Source: an uncultured Victivallales bacterium
GTDB lineage: Bacteria; Verrucomicrobiota; Lentisphaeria; Victivallales; UBA1829
DNA length: 64,000 bases
Assembly: GCA_944391115.1 (NCBI GenBank)
Contig: CALXSJ010000015.1
Location: 1-64,000, forward strand
Reading direction: 5' to 3'
This document shows positions 32,823 to 56,872 of this stretch, in pieces (the stretch's first letter is position 1; each line of letters opens with the position of its first letter). The notes beneath the pieces are model-generated. The model did no database searches, was not told the origin of the DNA, and was given only the letters and a program-made list of their open reading frames with translations. A program made the translations under genes and the position numbers.

Positions 32823-32950
32823 TTCCGGCCTGCCGGAAACGGAAACGGTTTCGCGCATTGCGCGACCGGCGTTTCGCCGCCGGACCGCGACAAGGGCAAT
32901 GCCCTTGACTCACCGGGAAAAACGCTTCCGCATTTTTCCGCAGAGGGCGG
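32823..32950. repeat. Hairpin-chain repeat region A
   Basis: A run of short palindromes lies between two convergent genes: TTCCGGC/GCCGGAA (32823-32838), CGCGCA/TGCGCG (32852-32864), CCGGCG/CGCCGG with loop TTTCGC (32866-32883), AAGGGC/GCCCTT (32892-32906) and GGAAAAACGC/GCATTTTTCC (32916-32939, one mismatch). The last three occur in the same order at 54503-54577, with compensated stem changes, so this is a diverged copy of the same element. Confidence 0.8.
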
Positions 32951-38034: not shown

Positions 38035-41000
38035 TCATGCCTCCTTTTTCCGCGCCGCCATTGCGTGACGGTATTCCACGGGAATGACTTTGACGAATTT
38101 GCAGCGTTCGTTTTCCCAGTCTTCGAGTTTTGCCGCCGCACAGGGACTGCCCGTTGCCTCCAGATGCTCCCGGAGGAGGGCGAGAAGCTCTTTTTCATCT
38201 TCGGACCCCGCCAGAACGCTTTCCAGATCGACCGTCCCGACGTTGCAGCGGAGGTCGAAGTCGTTGGTCGCGTCGTAGACGTAGGCGATGCCGCCGGTCA
38301 TTCCCGCGCCGAAGTTGACGCCGGTCGGACCGAGCACCACGACCCGTCCCCCCGTCATATATTCGCATCCGTGGTCGCCGACTCCCTCGACGACCGCCGT
38401 GAATCCGCTGTTGCGGATCGCGAAGCGTTCACCCGCCTGACCGTTGAGAAAGATTTTGCCGGAGGTGCCGCCGTAGCCGATTACATTGCCGGCGATGACG
38501 TTGTCCGCCGGAGCGAACGGACTGTCCGCCGGCGGGCGGATGATGATTCTGCCGCCTGAAATTCCCTTCCCGACAAAGTCGTTGGCTTCTCCCTCCAGAC
38601 GGAAGGTGACGCCGTGGGCGAGGAAGGCGCCGAAGCTCTGTCCGGCGGTTCCCGTGAAGCGGACCGTCACCGTGTCGTCCGGGAGTCCCTGCGGCCCGAA
38701 GCGGCGGACGATCTCGCTGGAGAGGCGTGTGCCCGCCGTCCGGTCCACGTTCCGGATCGGAAGCGCCAGTTCCGCTTTCGATCCGTCGCGGAGCGTCTTT
38801 TGGAGGCGCGGAAGCAGATGTTCATCGTCGAATGTTTCCAGCGGATTTTTTCTTCCCGCAAACCGCACATCGCCGTCCTGCACACGCAGAAAGACGTTTG
38901 AAAAGTCGAGATTGCGCGTCTTGTAGAAGTCGATTGCGCGGTTCATCCGCAGAAGATCGGAACGCCCGACCGCCTCGTCGAGCGAGCGGAGCCCGAGTTT
39001 TGCGAGATATTCACGCACCTCGGAAGCCAGCATCCGCAGGAAGTTGATGATGTATTCGGGTTTGCCCCGGAAACACTTGCGCAGTTCCGGATCCTGCGTG
39101 GCGACGCCGACCGGGCAGGAGTTCTCATGGCATTTGCGCATCATGACGCAGCCGAGACAGACCAGAAGCGTCGTGGCGAATCCGAACTCCTCCGCGCCGA
39201 GCAGCGCGCCGATGATGACGTCGCGTCCGGTCTTGAGCTGGCCGTCCACCTGAAGCTTGACATTGCCGCGCAGTTTGTTGAGGACGAGCGTCTGCTGGGC
39301 TTCCGCGATGCCGAGCTCCCAGGGGAGCCCCGCATGCTTGATGCTGGTGAGGGGCGACGCGCCTGTGCCGCCGTCGTGCCCGCTGATGAGGATCACGTCC
39401 GCGTGCGCCTTCGCCACGCCCGCCGCGATTGTGCCGACGCCGACCTCCGAGACGAGCTTCACCGAAACGCGCGCCTTCTCGTTGGCGTTGCGCAGGTCGT
39501 AGATGAGCTGCGCGAGGTCTTCGATCGAATAGATGTCATGGTGCGGGGGAGGGGAGATCAGCGTCACGTGCGGCGTCGAGTGGCGCACCCGCGCAATCGC
39601 CTCGTCCACCTTGTGGCCGGGCAGCTGTCCGCCTTCGCCCGGCTTCGCGCCCTGCGCCATCTTGATCTGAAGGTCGCGCGCGTTCGCCAGATAGTCGATC
39701 GTCACGCCGAAACGTCCGCTGGCGATCTGGCGGATGGCGCTTCTGCGGTCCTCTCCGTTCGGGCCGGGCGTTTCCCGCGCGGGATCCTCGCCGCCCTCGC
39801 CGCAGTTGCTCATTGCGCCGATGCGGTTCATCGCAAGCGCGATCGCCTCATGCGCCTCCGGACTGAGCGAACCCAGGCTCATTGCGCCGGAAACGAAGCG
39901 CCGGAGAATGCTTTCCACGCTTTCGACCTCGTCGAGCGGAATGCTCTGCGTGTCCGCGAATTCAAAGAGCCCGCGCAGCGTGCAGAGGTGTTCCGACTGC
40001 TGATTGATGCAGGCGGCATATGCCTTGTATTTTTCCGGATCGTTGTTCTGCACCGCCTGCCGGAAGAGACTCAGGCTTTCCGGTGTCCAGAGGTGGTTTT
40101 CCCCGTCGCGCCGGAACCGGTACTGGCCGCCCGACGGAAGAAGGCCCGCTTTTGCCGCGCCGCAGCGGAGACGCACCTCCTCGGCGATGTCGTTCAGGCG
40201 GATTCCTCCGATCCTGCTCGCGGTTCCGGGGAAATAGCGCTCGATGACGCTGCGGTCGATGCCGACCGCTTCGAAAATCTGTGCCGAACGGTAGCTCCGG
40301 AGCGTCGAGATGCCCATCTTGGACATGACTTTCAGGAGACCCTTGTCCACGGCGTTGATATAGTTCTCCACGGCGCGCGCCGGATCGAGTCTGAGTTTTC
40401 CCGTTGCGCTCAGCACGCTGATCGTTTCCAGCGCCAGATACGGGTTGATCGCGGTCGCGCCGAAGCCGAGGAGAAGCGCGTAGTGCATGATCTCGCGGAT
40501 CTCGCCGGACTGGATGATTACGCCGACCGGAGGGCGGAGCCCCGCCGCCGAGAGCGCGCGGTTGACTGCCGCCGCCGCAAGAAGCGCGGGGATCGGCATG
40601 GAGCCTTCCGGAAGCTCGCGGTCGCTCAGAATGAGGATGTTGCGGCCGTTCTTCACCGAAGAGACCGCGCTTTCCTCGAGTTTCGCGAGCGCTTCCTCGA
40701 GACTGCCGTTCCAGGAGATCGGGAGCGTTGCCGCCGAGAAATATCCGTCGCTCAGCGAGCTCAGACGCCGGAGATCCTCGTCGGTGAGGACCGGGCGCGG
40801 AAGCTTGATGAGCTTGGATTCCGGCTGTTCGTCGGAGAGGATGTTGCCCTCGTTGCCGATGTAGGTGGTCAGACTCATGACGAGCTCCTCGCGGATCGGG
40901 TCGATCGGCGGGTTCGTTACCTGCGCGAACAGCTGTTTGAAGTAGTTGTAGAGGAGCTGAGGCTTGCCCGAAAGCACTGCCAGCGCGGCGTCGTTGCCCA

Positions 41001-42480
41001 TCGAACCGACGGGTTCGTGTCCGGTTTCCGCCATCGTCTGCACAATGATTTCGACATCCTCGCGTGTCCAGCCGAAAAGGCTCTGGCGGAAGCTGATGTG
41101 TTCGGGCACTTCCGGAGGATTGACCGAATCGAACAGCCCGTGCACGGTGATTTTCTCCTCCTCCGCCCAGCGGCGGTAGGGTTTGCGGCGGGCGGCGTCG
41201 TTCTTGAGCTCCGCGTCGAAGACAAGACGGTGTTTTTCCAGATCGCAGTAGATCATTTCGCCCGGTTTGAGGCGTCCTTTCCGGACAATTTCACCGGACT
41301 TGAAGTCAAGAACGCCGGTTTCGGAGGCGAGCACGAAGATTCCCTCCTTTGTCAGCGAGTAGCGGGCGGGGCGCAGACCGTTGCGGTCGAGAATCGCGCC
41401 TGCGTTCACGCCGTCGGAAAAGGCGACTGCCGCCGGACCGTCCCAGGGCTCCATCAGCGCCGAATGGTAGTCGAAGAATCCGCGGACGTCGCGTCCGAGG
41501 TGGTAGTTCTGCCCCCAGGCCTGCGGGATCAGCATCAGCATCGCGTGCGGCAGACTGCGCCCGGCGGCGACCAGAAGCTCGAACATGTTGTCCAGACTTG
41601 CCGAGTCGCTCTGTCCCGCGTCGATCAGCGGGAGAATCTTGGGAATGTCCGCTCCGAGCAGTTCGGATTTCAGGAACGGCTCCCGGCTTCTGAGCTGGTT
41701 GAGATTGCCGCGCAGCGTGTTGATTTCTCCGTTGTGCGCAAGATAGCGGAACGGGTGGGCGAGCTTCCATGTCGGAAACGTGTTTGTGCTGTAACGCTGG
41801 TGCACCAGTGCGAGGGGGCTTTCAAAATCCGGATCGTTGAGATCGGAATAGAACTTGTCGATCTGGGTGGCGAGCAGGAGTCCCTTGTAGACGATGCTCC
41901 GGCTGGAACAGCTCGGGATATAGCAGTCGGGCAGACGCTTTTCAATCAGTCTGCGCATGACGAAGAGCTTGCGTTCGAACACGGCCTGCGAGGAGAACTC
42001 TTCACCTCCGATGAAGACCTGGCGGATCAGGGGACAGGTCTTGCGCGCCGCCGCGCCGATGCACTCCGGATGAACCGGAACATCGCGCCAGAAGAGAATC
42101 CGTCCCCCTTCCGAGGTGACGATGCTTTCGATCCGCGACTCCTCATGTGCGCCCCCGAAGAGCATTGCCACGCCGTAGGATCCCTTTTTCGGAAGGGCGA
42201 CCGGAAGAACCTTCCGGAAAAATTTATCCGGCATCGAGAGAAGAATTCCGGCGCCGTCTCCGGTTTCCGGGTCTCCGCCCGCCGCGCCGCGGTGCATGAG
42301 GCGCTTCAGAACCGTGATCCCCATTTCGACGATCCGGTGTCCGGCTTCATTGTTCAGATTCGCGACCAGCCCGACTCCGCAGGCGTCGTGCTCGTTGCGG
42401 AAGGAATACAATCCCGTGTCGGGCACGGGATATGCCGCCTGCCGTTCCGGGCTTTGCTGTTCCTGATTGTTTTCCACCAT
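38035..42480 (-). CDS. gltB: Glutamate synthase large (alpha) subunit
   Basis: A 1481-residue multidomain enzyme of ammonia assimilation. The N-terminal glutaminase starts after a propeptide of about 31 residues at the nucleophile Cys in EHDACGVGL. The central domain, the FMN-binding barrel ([20 protein letters not shown]) and the [3Fe-4S] cluster region ([30 protein letters not shown], shown here only to locate the Cys ligands) follow, then the C-terminal beta-helix with repeated Gly motifs ([13 protein letters not shown]). The start at 42480 (MVENNQ) is chosen over an upstream in-frame ATG because AAGGAG lies about 10 bases before it. It heads the gltB-gltD operon. The upstream region carries a hairpin-chain repeat, shared with divergent purF. 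Confidence 0.96.
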   Translation of the reverse strand: [1481 protein letters not shown]

Positions 42481-42556
42481 AATTGCCACACTCCTTGTTT
42501 GCATTCTGGTTTTCCGTATCAGCATGTTTCATGCCAGAATCGGAAAATGCCTGAAA

Positions 42557-42786
42557 CGGAAAAATGCAGAGCATTTTTCCCGGGGTCAAGGGTCGTTGAC
42601 CCTTGCGCGGTCCGGCTGCGTAAGCCGGTCGCCGGAGGCGAAACAGATTCTGCGCGCGAAGCTGCGCCGGAAAAATAATTTGCAAAGCAAATTATGATTC
42701 ATGCTTTCCCGTGAGTCCTGCCTCGGTCCGGCTGCGTAAGCTGGCCGCCGGAGGCGAAATCCACGGAACGCGTGTGCTCCGCACTG
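42557..42786. repeat. Hairpin-chain repeat region B
   Basis: Between divergent gltB and purF lies a string of palindromes: GGAAAAATGC/GCATTTTTCC with loop AGA (42558-42580), AAGGGTC/GACCCTT (42588-42604), CCGGCT/AGCCGG (42612-42628), CGCC/GGCG (42630-42640), ATAATTTGC/GCAAATTAT (42675-42695), CCGGCT/AGCTGG (42728-42744), CGCC/GGCG and GTGC/GCAC. Most modules also occur at 53950-54577 and 56468-56864, in other orders and orientations. Confidence 0.85.
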
Positions 42787-42790
42787 ATAT

Positions 42791-42840
42791 TTTTACAATT
42801 TTGTAAAATTATCATATTTTCATTTTACAAAAATGTAAAA
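42791..42840 (+). promoter_or_regulatory. Tandem palindromic operator candidate upstream of purF
   Basis: Two copies of TTTTACA-N4-TGTAAAA occur at 42791-42808 and 42823-42840. Their centres are 32 bp apart, about three helical turns, so two dimers would bind the same face of the DNA. They lie about 100 bp before the purF start and are followed by a third, different dyad, TGAAAT-N4-ATTTCA (42850-42865). The regulator is unknown. Confidence 0.6.
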
Positions 42841-52952: not shown

Positions 52953-53954
52953 ATGAATGATGACGGAAAAGTGATTGTGATTCTCGGTCCCACGGCATCC
53001 GGGAAAACCGCGTTCGGCGTGCGTCTCGCCTCCCGGATCGGTGGTGAGATTGTCAGCGTCGACTCCCGCCAGCTTTACCGCGGACTTGATATCGGAAGCG
53101 GGAAGGACATTGCCGAATACACGCTTCCGTCGGGGGAGACGGTCGGACATCACCTGATTGATATTGCAGAACCGGATCATCCTTACAATCTGGCGGAGTT
53201 CATGCGCGACTGCCGCAATGCCGTGGAAAAGATTCTTGCGGAGGGACATGTCCCTGTGCTGGTTGGCGGCAGTGCGCTGTATCTGGATGCGGTTCTGCAC
53301 AACTATTCGCTTCAGGGAGGGGCGCCGGATCCTGTGCAGCGCGCCGCGCTCCGGGCTCTTCCCACGGAGGAACTGCGCGAAAAGCTCCGCGTGCTGGAGC
53401 CAGCTTCCGAGATCCTGCGTCGAGAGCCGGAGAATCGGACGCGATTGATCCGGCGGATTGAGATGTTGACGCTGCCGCCGGATGAAGCACTGCTTTCCAA
53501 TGCAAATGCGCCCTCGGAGAAATGGCGTTTTCTGGTGACGGGTGTATTGCGCGACCGAGCGGAAATTCATTACCGGATTGAGAAGCGTCTGGACGAGCGT
53601 TTCGCTTCCGGAATGCTCGACGAGGCGCGGCATCTTCACGATGAAAAGGGGGTCAGCTGGGAACGGCTCGAATTTTTCGGGCTCGAATACCGCTACATGG
53701 CGCTTCACCTTCAGGGGAAGCTTTCGTTTCAGGAGATGCGCGATCAGCTTCTGATCCGGATTCGCCAGTTTGCCAAGCGTCAGGATTCCTGGTTCCGCAA
53801 CATGGAGCGCAACGGCATTGCGATCCACTGGTTCCGGGAGACGGAATTCGAGCAGGCGCTTGCGCTGTCGCGCGATTTCCTCGCGGAAAAAACTCTGCCC
53901 GAACCCGCCTTCAAACTCTCTGAGACTTTTTACGGGCCACGCAGCAGAGATTAA
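52953..53954 (+). CDS. miaA: tRNA dimethylallyltransferase MiaA
   Basis: MiaA adds a dimethylallyl group to A37 of tRNAs that read codons starting with U, which improves decoding. The 333-residue protein has the P-loop VIVILGPTASGKTAFG, the catalytic SVDSRQLYRGLDIGSGK and HHLIDIAEPDHPYNLAEF motifs, VLVGGSALYLDAVL, and the basic FAKRQDSWFRNM region near the end. The start at 52953 (MNDDGKV) is chosen because the family begins just before the P-loop; upstream in-frame ATG codons add a Phe-rich tail without support. The TAA stop at 53952-53954 is shared with the first base pairs of a 107-bp repeat array. Confidence 0.95.
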   Translation: MNDDGKVIVILGPTASGKTAFGVRLASRIGGEIVSVDSRQLYRGLDIGSGKDIAEYTLPSGETVGHHLIDIAEPDHPYNLAEFMRDCRNAVEKILAEGHVPVLVGGSALYLDAVLHNYSLQGGAPDPVQRAALRALPTEELREKLRVLEPASEILRREPENRTRLIRRIEMLTLPPDEALLSNANAPSEKWRFLVTGVLRDRAEIHYRIEKRLDERFASGMLDEARHLHDEKGVSWERLEFFGLEYRYMALHLQGKLSFQEMRDQLLIRIRQFAKRQDSWFRNMERNGIAIHWFRETEFEQALALSRDFLAEKTLPEPAFKLSETFYGPRSRD

Positions 53955-54180
53955 AAAAATTGCGGAAGCAATTATGATTCGTGCAGGCCTTTCAGTCCTG
54001 CCGCGCAAGGGTCAGCGACCCTTGACCCCGAGAAGAATGCGTTGCATTCTTCCGTCATTAAAAAAATTGCGGAAGCAATTATGATTCGTGCAGGAGTTCC
54101 AGTCCTGCCGCGCAAGGGTCAGCGACCCTTGACCCCGAGAAGAATGCGTTGCATTCTTCCGTTATTAAAAAAATTGCGGG
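53950..54180. repeat. 107-bp tandem repeat, two full copies and a partial third
   Basis: Units begin with ATTAAAAAAATTGCGG at 53950, 54057 and 54164, so the period is exactly 107 bp. Each unit is a chain of hairpins: AATTGC/GCAATT with a GGAA or GGGA loop, GCAGG/CCTGC, AAGGGTC/GACCCTT with loop AGC, and GAAGAATGC/GCATTCTTC with loop GTT. The third unit runs on into the 397-bp inverted-repeat module after its GCAGGACT/AGTCCTGC hairpin. The first unit starts inside the miaA stop codon. Confidence 0.92.
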
Positions 54181-54577
54181 AGCAATTATGATTCGTGCAG
54201 GACTTTCAGTCCTGCCGCGGTCCAGCTGCGCAAGCTGGTCGCCGGAGGCGAAATCTCCCCCGGCGGCGGTTCCACCCGCTTAAGGACGAGAAGCGAAGCT
54301 TCGAGAGCCGCCGACACAGTGCATGACCGCAGGGAATGATCCGGAGCTCTCGTGAATAATGAGTATTAAAGAGCCGAAAGAATGCTTGTGCATTCTTCCG
54401 ACTCCATGGATAAGCCCGGAGCTCTCGAACTTTTCCAGCAGAAAAGTTCTCGTCTCTGAGCGGTTTGAACCGCTCCGGGCGGGGGATTTCGCGCTCCGCA
54501 CGACCAGCGTTTCGCCGCTGGATCACGCCAAGGGCCAACGGCCCTTGACCCCGGGAAAAATGCAGCGCATTTTTCCG
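54181..54577. repeat. Left arm of 397-bp inverted repeat (hairpin-chain module)
   Basis: This 397-bp segment is the reverse complement of 56468-56864 with no gaps and 14 mismatches. The outer 271 bp (54181-54451) are identical and all mismatches fall in the inner third. It contains about ten hairpins, including CCAGCT/AGCTGG, GAAGC/GCTTC, CGAGAGC/GCTCTCG, AAGAATGC/GCATTCTT, GAACTTTTC/GAAAAGTTC, GAGCGGTT/AACCGCTC, CCAGCG/CGCTGG, AAGGGCC/GGCCCTT and GGAAAAATGC/GCATTTTTCC. Confidence 0.93.
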
Positions 54578-54589
54578 TTATCTTCTTTC

Positions 54590-56308
54590 TCAATACGCCG
54601 GAACGGAAGTTCTCCGGAATCTCTCCCCGTTTTCCACGTCCGGTTCCAGCTCAAAATTGTGTCCGTCGGAAGCATAGCGGTATGGCTTCCGCGTATCTGG
54701 ATACACAGGAAGCGCATCCAGATATTCCGGGACAAGGTTCTCCAATGCAGCCGGATAGGCGCCATGTTCGCTTCGGTAAAGTTTCAATGCCGCGGCAAGC
54801 ATGTTGAGCGCCTGGCCCCGCTGGTAAACAAGGGCGGCATTACGATAGTAGTCGGGAATTTTCGAATCCCACTCTCCCGTCTCGGGAACCGTCTCCGTTT
54901 CCATCTGTCTCAAAAGGGACTGAAGCGCAAGATGTGTATCAATCTCCTGCGCTGTTTTCGCAAGGTGCATCGGATAGGCAAAGCGGGCATTTTCCCAGCT
55001 CAGGGAACGCATGGCGGCAAGAAAATATCCGGTCTCGCCCGGCAGATTGAGGGAACGGGAACGCAGCAGGGAAAGCAATTCACGGTAAAAGGGAGCGTAT
55101 TCCTTCCCGTCCGGCCCCAGCGAAACCGCCGCAGGAGTAAGGATGCAGTAAACAGCATTCAGAACCAGCTCCGAAATAAGCCAGGTCTGCCGGGGCATGT
55201 TTTTCAACATGCGCAGACACACTTCCAGCTCGGGAAGAATCTTCTCCGTCTGTCCTGTTTCCCGGAAAAGCGCGGCACGGCCCGCACGGTTCCTCACATA
55301 CGAGCGGAAGTTGTTCAAGATCGGTCCGGCATCCACAGGATTCTTCTCGAACGGAGCCAGCGCCGCAGCTTCAGCGGCCAGCAGCACCTCAAAATCAGGA
55401 GCCTGGAAAAGTTTCAGAGTCTCACGCCGATTTTTCTCCGGAATTAAGCGACTCGCAGATACCGTTTTCTGTTGATTTTTCCTCGAAAGCAATTTTACGG
55501 CAGGAGTTTCATGCCAGGAATAAATGCCTGCAAACGGAAGAGAAAATTCGGGATGGCACTTGTAAAATTCGCTCACCGGCTTCAGAAGTTTCTCTGTTTC
55601 CGGAGACAATTTCCAATCAAGGGTATCCGGGACGACGCCGTTTGCCAGAGCCTTCTTTTCCGCCCCGGAAGCATACAGCTGAGCAGAAGCCAGCGCAACA
55701 AGCCAGAACGCAAGGCAGCAGAGTCCGGGCAGAACACTCATGCCGAGGAGAACTTTCCATCCCGTGCGGTCGGAAAAGCAAGTCCGGACACTCCATGCAC
55801 ACAGCAGAACAAGCAGAAAAAGAAAGGTTCCCAGAATACCGTTTGAAATAGTGCAGACCGGGGAGAAATTTCCGATCATGCACAGAAAAGCAATCATCCC
55901 GTAAACAGCAGGTGCAAAGCAGACGGAAACAAGTCCCGCACACAGCAGGATTCCCCACAATGCGTGCCATGGACTGCCGGCAGTTCTCCGGCAGTTGAAG
56001 GCACTCAGATAGAAAATGGGCACGGTCAGAAGCATACAGACAGCGATCCACCGGATCAGGGAATCCCCCATCAATGCCGACATGTTCAATTTTGCAAACT
56101 CATTATTCCATCCGAGCAGGAGTTCCTGAGCGCCTCTCATATCGCACAGCAGAAAGAGGAGAAGCGGAAGCGCGCACAAGACGGCGATTCCAAGTCCGAT
56201 GAAAAAACGTTTCACCAAAAGAGTCCGGTCGGGAACGGCTCCTGCAAAAAAGCCGCTGCACAACGCGCCGATCATCAGAACAACATACAATACTGCATAC
56301 CAGAACAT
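54590..56308 (-). CDS. Polytopic membrane protein with pseudopilin-like C-terminal tail, unknown function
   Basis: A 572-residue protein. The first 230 residues contain about six membrane helices (for example VLYVVLMIGALCSGFFAG, FFIGLGIAVLCALPLLLFLL, VLLGMSVLPGLCCLAFWLVAL). The rest is soluble and mostly helical, ending with LKLYRSEHGAYPAALENLVPEYL. This final stretch recalls the C-terminal region of type II secretion pseudopilins and related planctomycete-verrucomicrobial membrane proteins. No catalytic motif is visible. The start at 56308 (MFWYAV) has AAGGGG just upstream; the frame is open further upstream but runs into repeat sequence. The stop lies 13 bases from the left arm of the inverted repeat, and the gene is alone inside it. 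Confidence 0.8.
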   Translation of the reverse strand: MFWYAVLYVVLMIGALCSGFFAGAVPDRTLLVKRFFIGLGIAVLCALPLLLFLLCDMRGAQELLLGWNNEFAKLNMSALMGDSLIRWIAVCMLLTVPIFYLSAFNCRRTAGSPWHALWGILLCAGLVSVCFAPAVYGMIAFLCMIGNFSPVCTISNGILGTFLFLLVLLCAWSVRTCFSDRTGWKVLLGMSVLPGLCCLAFWLVALASAQLYASGAEKKALANGVVPDTLDWKLSPETEKLLKPVSEFYKCHPEFSLPFAGIYSWHETPAVKLLSRKNQQKTVSASRLIPEKNRRETLKLFQAPDFEVLLAAEAAALAPFEKNPVDAGPILNNFRSYVRNRAGRAALFRETGQTEKILPELEVCLRMLKNMPRQTWLISELVLNAVYCILTPAAVSLGPDGKEYAPFYRELLSLLRSRSLNLPGETGYFLAAMRSLSWENARFAYPMHLAKTAQEIDTHLALQSLLRQMETETVPETGEWDSKIPDYYRNAALVYQRGQALNMLAAALKLYRSEHGAYPAALENLVPEYLDALPVYPDTRKPYRYASDGHNFELEPDVENGERFRRTSVPAY

Positions 56309-56363
56309 TTTTTCCCCTTCTTTTTCTGCGATATCGGCATAATACCGGAATTGTCTATCTCCG

Positions 56364-56392
56364 AAAATAGCATAAAAACGGGAGAAAATCAA
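56364..56392 (-). promoter_or_regulatory. Promoter of the IR-enclosed membrane protein gene
   Basis: On the minus strand TTGATT (56392-56387) and TATTTT (56369-56364) are 17 bases apart, about 55 bp upstream of the start. A further TATAAT-like sequence lies near 56430. The promoter is inside the inverted repeat, so it would move with the gene on inversion. Confidence 0.5.
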
Positions 56393-56467
56393 GAATATCA
56401 AAGGACTGAGCCGCACAATATTATACTGTTTAATTAAAGGACATTGAACTTTGGCATGATCCAGTGA

Positions 56468-56864
56468 CGGAAGAATGCAACGCATTCTTCTCGGGGTCAA
56501 GGGTCGCTGACCCTTGGCATGATCCAGCGGCGAAACGCTGGTCGTGCGGAGCACGAAATCTCCCGCCCGGAGCGGTTCAAACCGCTCAGTGATGAGAACT
56601 TTTCTGCTGGAAAAGTTCGAGAGCTCCGGGCTTATCCATGGAGTCGGAAGAATGCACAAGCATTCTTTCGGCTCTTTAATACTCATTATTCACGAGAGCT
56701 CCGGATCATTCCCTGCGGTCATGCACTGTGTCGGCGGCTCTCGAAGCTTCGCTTCTCGTCCTTAAGCGGGTGGAACCGCCGCCGGGGGAGATTTCGCCTC
56801 CGGCGACCAGCTTGCGCAGCTGGACCGCGGCAGGACTGAAAGTCCTGCACGAATCATAATTGCT
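56468..56864. repeat. Right arm of 397-bp inverted repeat (hairpin-chain module)
   Basis: Reverse complement of 54181-54577. Compared with the left arm, stem changes are paired: AAGGGTC/GACCC replaces AAGGGCC/GGCCC, and GGAAGAATGC/GCATTCTTC replaces GGAAAAATGC/GCATTTTTC. Possible reading frames across it are translations of palindromes and are not counted as genes. Confidence 0.93.
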
Positions 56865-56872
56865 TCCGTTAC

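Follow-up and report, generated by a model that had tools for sequence, protein, structure and literature searches.

A dispersed repeat family of ordered hairpin chains in the intergenic DNA of a Victivallales bacterium and its relatives

Introduction

REPINs and BIMEs are high-copy, intergenic repeats with inverted palindromic halves, tandem clusters and compensatory changes in their hairpins, and the invariant ends of GI REPINs lie 71 bp apart (Bertels and Rainey 2011, PMC3116915). The pneumococcal BOX elements (boxA-boxB(n)-boxC) are modular, interspersed and structured, and they vary inside (67-637 bp) (PMC3049150). In organelles, the sponge RHE (PMC2800124), the palindromic repeats of Volvox (PMC2670323) and double-hairpin elements are described as single, double or triple hairpins with conserved or symmetrically changed stems and variable loops; they fill intergenic DNA in tandem and have been read as selfish. 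REPs that carry GTAG or CGTC tags are palindromic and intergenic as well, are present in PVC bacteria and, in the CGTC class, have no dedicated transposase (PMC3733652).

The hairpin chains described here lie in a 64,000-nt stretch of DNA (the window) from the draft genome of an uncultured Victivallales bacterium (G000; 3.66 Mb, 44 contigs), and they resemble all four groups in many of the features just listed. They differ from REPINs and BIMEs in size, having four-hairpin halves of ~97 nt and a unit of ~410 nt, and also in the lack of a tag, the lack of a consistent RAYT gene and the hypervariable loops, whereas REPIN ends are conserved. In contrast to BOX as described, nearly every module is a palindrome and the ends are multi-hairpin inverted homologues; the organellar elements lack the fixed order of 12 modules, and the tagged REPs have a constant tag at the hairpin end that is missing here. 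The element works like REP/BIME/REPIN or BOX, but it lacks two of the defining REP/REPIN features that were tested, the cognate RAYT and the tag.

An initial annotation of the window had set the chains apart from single REP or BIME units and from CRISPR. Both distinctions hold, since the halves are four-hairpin chains within an ordered unit and since repeat analysis of the region gave no identical repeats with unique spacers of constant length. The same annotation knew of no described element with this architecture. None was found in Rfam, in phage and plasmid collections or in the literature searched, but close functional analogues do exist, and the absence of a named match in these sources is not proof of novelty.

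Hairpin chains and architecture of the unit

Hairpins with a perfect stem of at least 5 and a loop of 2-8 make up 40-53% of four regions of the window, whereas they make up 10-15% of dinucleotide shuffles. Weighted stem scores of these regions (10, 18, 59 and 34) exceed the shuffle maxima (7, 8, 15 and 11), and the stem score of an adjoining gene is at the level of its own shuffles. The excess over shuffles confirms the hairpin chains. The regions had been said to consist almost wholly of palindromes, which is too strong for perfect stems, as these cover about half of them. The recurrence of the module GGAARAATGC is borne out by 12 occurrences in the window against 0.75 expected. A whole unit is strongly folded, with z about -10 for both strands as RNA and for the plus strand as DNA.

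About 12 hairpins, A to L, follow one another in a set order along the full unit (~410 nt). Those on the head side are A (AAAATTGC or ATAATTTGC), B (GCAGGACT), C (CCAGCT) and D (TCGCC), those on the tail side are I (TCGTGC), J (CCAGCG), K (CAAGGGTC/CC) and L (GAARAATGC), and the central part E-H has longer, nested stems. Units are built from half-units (~97 nt), each with four hairpins in a row: A-B-C-D is the head and I-J-K-L the tail. Short forms (A-B-C-D, I-J-K-L, A-B-C-D-I-J-K-L and A-B-K-L) are frequently in tandem, and solo tails are common. The four regions of the window are copies of one dispersed repeat family, as follows.

32844..32940, plus strand: solo tail half-unit I-J-K-L, between convergent genes (profile positions 320-412, E 8e-18; covariance model 32847-32942, 89 bits)
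42555..42645, minus strand: chimaeric tail half-unit, outer hairpins of tail type and inner ones of head type (profile E 6e-15; covariance model 79 bits)
42673..42762, plus strand: head half-unit A-B-C-D with B degenerate (profile positions 1-90, E 3e-18)
53950..54056, plus strand: 107-nt deletion derivative A-B-K-L, copy 1 (direct repeat D1; profile matches 2-53 and 363-414)
54057..54163, plus strand: 107-nt deletion derivative A-B-K-L, copy 2, 96% like copy 1 (direct repeat D1; profile)
54164..54580, plus strand: full-length unit A to L, about 12 hairpins (profile 1-414, E 1e-145; fold z -10.6 as RNA, -10.2 as DNA)
54590..56308, minus strand: gene between the inverted full units, 572 aa, no Pfam match
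56466..56871, minus strand: second full-length unit, inverted relative to the first (inverted repeat I1, 402 nt, 96%; profile 8-414, E 1e-141)

The modules had been thought to recur in different orders. Instead, the order is fixed from A to L, which rules out free shuffling of modules, and other orders are only apparent because copies are inverted, internally deleted or tandemly repeated. Likewise, 53950-54577 and 56468-56864 had been treated as separate chains, but 54177-54578 and 56467-56868 form an inverted pair with 96% complementarity.

The head in reverse is homologous to the tail (GATTTCGCCTCCGGCGACCAGCTTGCGCAGCTGGACCGCGGCAGGACT and GATTTCGTGCTCCGCACGACCAGCGTTTCGCCGCTGGATCACGCCAAGGGTC). 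Heads are detected on the opposite strand by the covariance model of the tail, and the profile of the unit also gives a match to the unit's reverse strand. The full unit is two inverted half-units plus the central part, that is, a palindrome built of palindromes. Therefore, it folds as separate hairpins and also as one long nested palindrome.

REPINs, too, have a variable centre flanked by inverted conserved halves and lie in intergenic tandem clusters (PMC3116915). Accordingly, the unit could be a giant REPIN, in which two inverted REP-like halves are moved as a single-stranded hairpin by a RAYT (Y1 tyrosine transposase) that is now lost or rare, and RAYT-family genes are indeed present in G002, G012 and G134, with fragments in G000. 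However, G003, G019 and G026 have no Y1 match despite many copies, the pieces in G000 are all broken, and no element is near any of the Y1 loci examined. Neither GTAG nor a consistent CGTC tag stands beside hairpin L, where the following bases vary (CGTTT 31, CGTCT 19, CGTAA 16, and others). Overall, a REPIN origin seems unlikely.

Distribution and genomic context

The genome of the window has 98 unit matches, and 114 half-unit matches by the covariance model. Three congeners (G001, G002 and G003) were compared, all genomes of the genus used being draft assemblies; the element has tens of copies in G001 and G003 and few in G002. When 198 genomes of the class were surveyed with a model of the half-unit (cut-off E 1e-5, the E-values of the model being rough), matches were obtained in 32, and the half-unit was abundant in one sister genus. 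The element is shared with related genomes. In other families of the order, half-unit matches are weaker, and stem sequences are swapped while pairing is retained, such as CCAGGGC/GCCCTGG for CAAGGGC/GCCCTTG. Phage and plasmid collections contained no homologues. A single IMG/VR contig had one partial match of 29 positions to the I-J part (L320:788-816), which is uninformative.

Element density was taken from stretches totalling 624 kb, and gene context from the calls of a home-made gene finder. Elements account for 0.9% of this DNA and nearly all lie outside predicted genes; their share of non-coding DNA is about 5-9% in contigs C1 and C4 and 19% in the window. Among the functions proposed in the initial annotation, that of a selfish palindromic element fits best, with many dispersed intergenic copies whose number varies between species.

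Many contigs of G000, G001 and G003 end within elements (e.g. C43, C24, C20 and C23), and therefore the true arrays may exceed their assembled length. Such breaks, and the difficulty of assembling the orientation of DNA between 400-nt inverted repeats, might point to an artefact of assembly or binning. However, three assemblies of the genus have full units in the interior of contigs, bordered by unique DNA, and several of these flanks match, which refutes an artefact for the elements themselves, the orientation of 54580-56466 aside; this explanation is extremely improbable.

Arrays with two predicted neighbours lie between convergent genes in 19 of 68 cases and between divergent genes in 7 of 68, compared with 36 and 54 of 236 ordinary gaps, in counts that depend on the home-made gene finder and on arrays partly picked for matching, some sites being one site counted in two species. 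Tail and full units are oriented 15 sense and 8 anti relative to transcription. It is conceivable that the elements are protein-bound sites of DNA architecture (gyrase, a nucleoid protein or a replication barrier) selected for chromosome structure, as has been proposed for BIMEs, since the stems are symmetric with slight strand preference and the sites are intergenic, often convergent places where supercoils collect. However, copy number and presence vary among congeners, and in many genomes of the same family no element reached the threshold, so that such a role is very unlikely.

Evolution of stems and loops

Stems were counted after being placed strand-symmetrically across 111 tails. This placement superseded RNAalifold on plain alignments and linker-anchored counting, both of which misplaced stems because loop lengths vary. 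Among 3211 cells of the tail stems, 3076 are standard pairs and 466 are changed in both arms; the non-standard cells comprise few G-T (20) or A-C (50) intermediates and 65 others. Stems are perfect in 528 of 682 hairpins. In 15 diverse tails, the number of paired cells and the covariation score were above all 500 of 500 shuffles and every slid control.

RNA under selection normally evolves via G-U intermediates. On the plus strand of the unit, G-T mismatches are rarer than A-C (24 against 58, p 2e-4, for copies that are not independent), and when stem mismatches are read by presumed transcript direction, 10 are G-U and 18 are A-C. These counts speak against pairing in RNA as the dominant force. 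The asymmetry between A-C and G-T could reflect a weak RNA effect on the opposite strand or strand-biased mutation.

The same observations bear on whether the chains are functional RNA, either transcribed 3' regions or ornate RNAs, with hairpins that protect mRNA ends, stop transcription or bind protein. Strong folds on both strands, compensated stems, enrichment between convergent genes with depletion between divergent ones, and one L hairpin that scores as terminator-like are all compatible with such a role. However, there is no Rfam match at the gathering score (the best, E 0.14, lies outside the element), no G-U preference by presumed transcript direction and no excess of terminator-like sites over shuffles; moreover, the elements occur in either orientation relative to transcription and their presence varies among species. 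A functional RNA is therefore an improbable explanation. Protection of mRNA 3' ends, as put forward in the initial annotation, agrees with the convergent enrichment and divergent rarity but not with the missing G-U preference in the presumed transcripts.

Rates of change between G000 and G001 were compared in seven matching pairs, two of which are ambiguous tandem copies, and the main figures come from the five clear pairs. Loops changed at 16.0% of positions (30/187), linkers at 4.9% (42/857) and stems at 2.6% (19/738), compared with 6.6% for other intergenic DNA and 6.5% for the loops of ordinary intergenic hairpins. It appears from these few copies that, relative to ordinary intergenic DNA, loops evolve about 2.7 times as fast (p 2e-5) and stems about 0.4 times as fast (p 1e-5). 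With the two ambiguous tandem pairs included, loop change is 19.7%. Loop inversion was rejected as a general cause of loop change, as inverted loop pairs were seen only in hairpin L and, weakly, in A.

In E. coli, template switching has been documented to turn imperfect palindromes into more perfect ones (PMC7202029). It would yield symmetrical stem changes without lasting intermediates. The combination of stem pairing and fast loops suggests that the shape of the element is maintained by the DNA hairpins as such, and the stems are probably re-templated by template switching during replication.

Changes between species

The number of units differs between G000 and G001 at the matching sites C1:157067 (2 half-units versus 1), C4:95472 (1 unit versus 1.5), C5:90791 and C2:113419. 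At the site at 42555 of the window, the element is present in G000 and absent from G001, G002 and G003. No clean target-site duplication was seen.

The segment 54113-56868 of G000 lies the opposite way round in G001, relative to its flanks. At one edge of this segment, two full units in G001 correspond to one L-type hairpin in G003; the array may have grown from a single hairpin or been cut back to one by deletion. G003 shares the orientation of G001 at the segment junction and has no long repeat there. Therefore, G000 is probably the inverted one, in a draft assembly whose 400-nt inverted repeats make the orientation of the DNA between them difficult to establish. Recombination or a phase-variable inversion is possible.

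A proposed mode of maintenance and spread

On balance, the chains are probably non-autonomous, dispersed palindromic repeat DNA that acts at the DNA level. The proposed course can be described as follows. The unit would fold as single-stranded DNA during replication, and the polymerase would switch template within each hairpin so that one arm is copied onto the other, whereby a mutation in a stem would be either reversed or made symmetrical. Exposure as single strands may account for the fast change of the loops. Arrays may grow and shrink by unequal recombination or slippage, and new sites would be reached with the help of a trans-acting enzyme (perhaps of the single-strand HUH kind) or by recombination; no mobilising enzyme was found. 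Elements gather between genes and favour 3' ends, probably since these are the places where an insertion is least harmful, and some L hairpins may end transcription as a side effect. Alternatively, the spread may have taken place long ago, leaving tandem change and recombination as the only processes now active, and selection for a hairpin in RNA or DNA, instead of template switching, may be what conserves the stems.

A more far-reaching version of the DNA-level reading, offered tentatively, is that of a self-rewriting palindrome of palindromes, in which arm templates arm, loops change faster than neutral, shape and not sequence is inherited, and an enzyme other than RAYT spreads the element. 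If the DNA-level reading is right, these genomes hold hundreds of natural records of DNA hairpin mutation, with symmetrical stems and fast loops, and the shaping of repeat families by template switching in nature, a long-standing question, becomes testable by comparing related genomes. Inverted pairs also provide a way for genes to be inverted, and many assembly breaks in this group are explained by the copies.

A second repeat family and other inverted repeats

A second family of ~155 nt, absent from the window, shares B-C-D and has inverted ends (AATACCGCGATGC ... GCATCGCGGTAAT) and TTTATT-like edges. G000 has about 20 copies (e.g. C1:128190-128343), often in tandem, that are about 97-98% identical to a copy in G001, and G001 and G003 each have their own near-uniform set. 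The near-uniform copies within species point to recent spread or homogenisation of this relative of the window element. Examined for the terminal inverted repeats and target-site duplication of a MITE, it showed, besides its inverted ends, a left edge that varies and a right edge that is nearly fixed; no clean empty site was seen at the one site tried. At G000:C2:147332-149424, between flanks that in G001 enclose a ~155-nt element, there is an unrelated stretch of 2.1 kb, apparently a membrane-protein gene.

At 42791-42838 of the window, two 18-bp inverted repeats, TTTTACAATTTTGTAAAA and TTTTACAAAAATGTAAAA, lie between a gltB-like gene and a glutamine amidotransferase gene. The gltB-like gene (38035-42525) has its closest named relative in Oligosphaera ethanolica (74%); judged by this one gene, the bacterium probably belongs to the Lentisphaeria or a neighbouring group. 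Similar pairs of repeats are found at the same place in G001, G002 and G003, and the pair resembles a conserved regulator site and seems to have no relation to the hairpin arrays.
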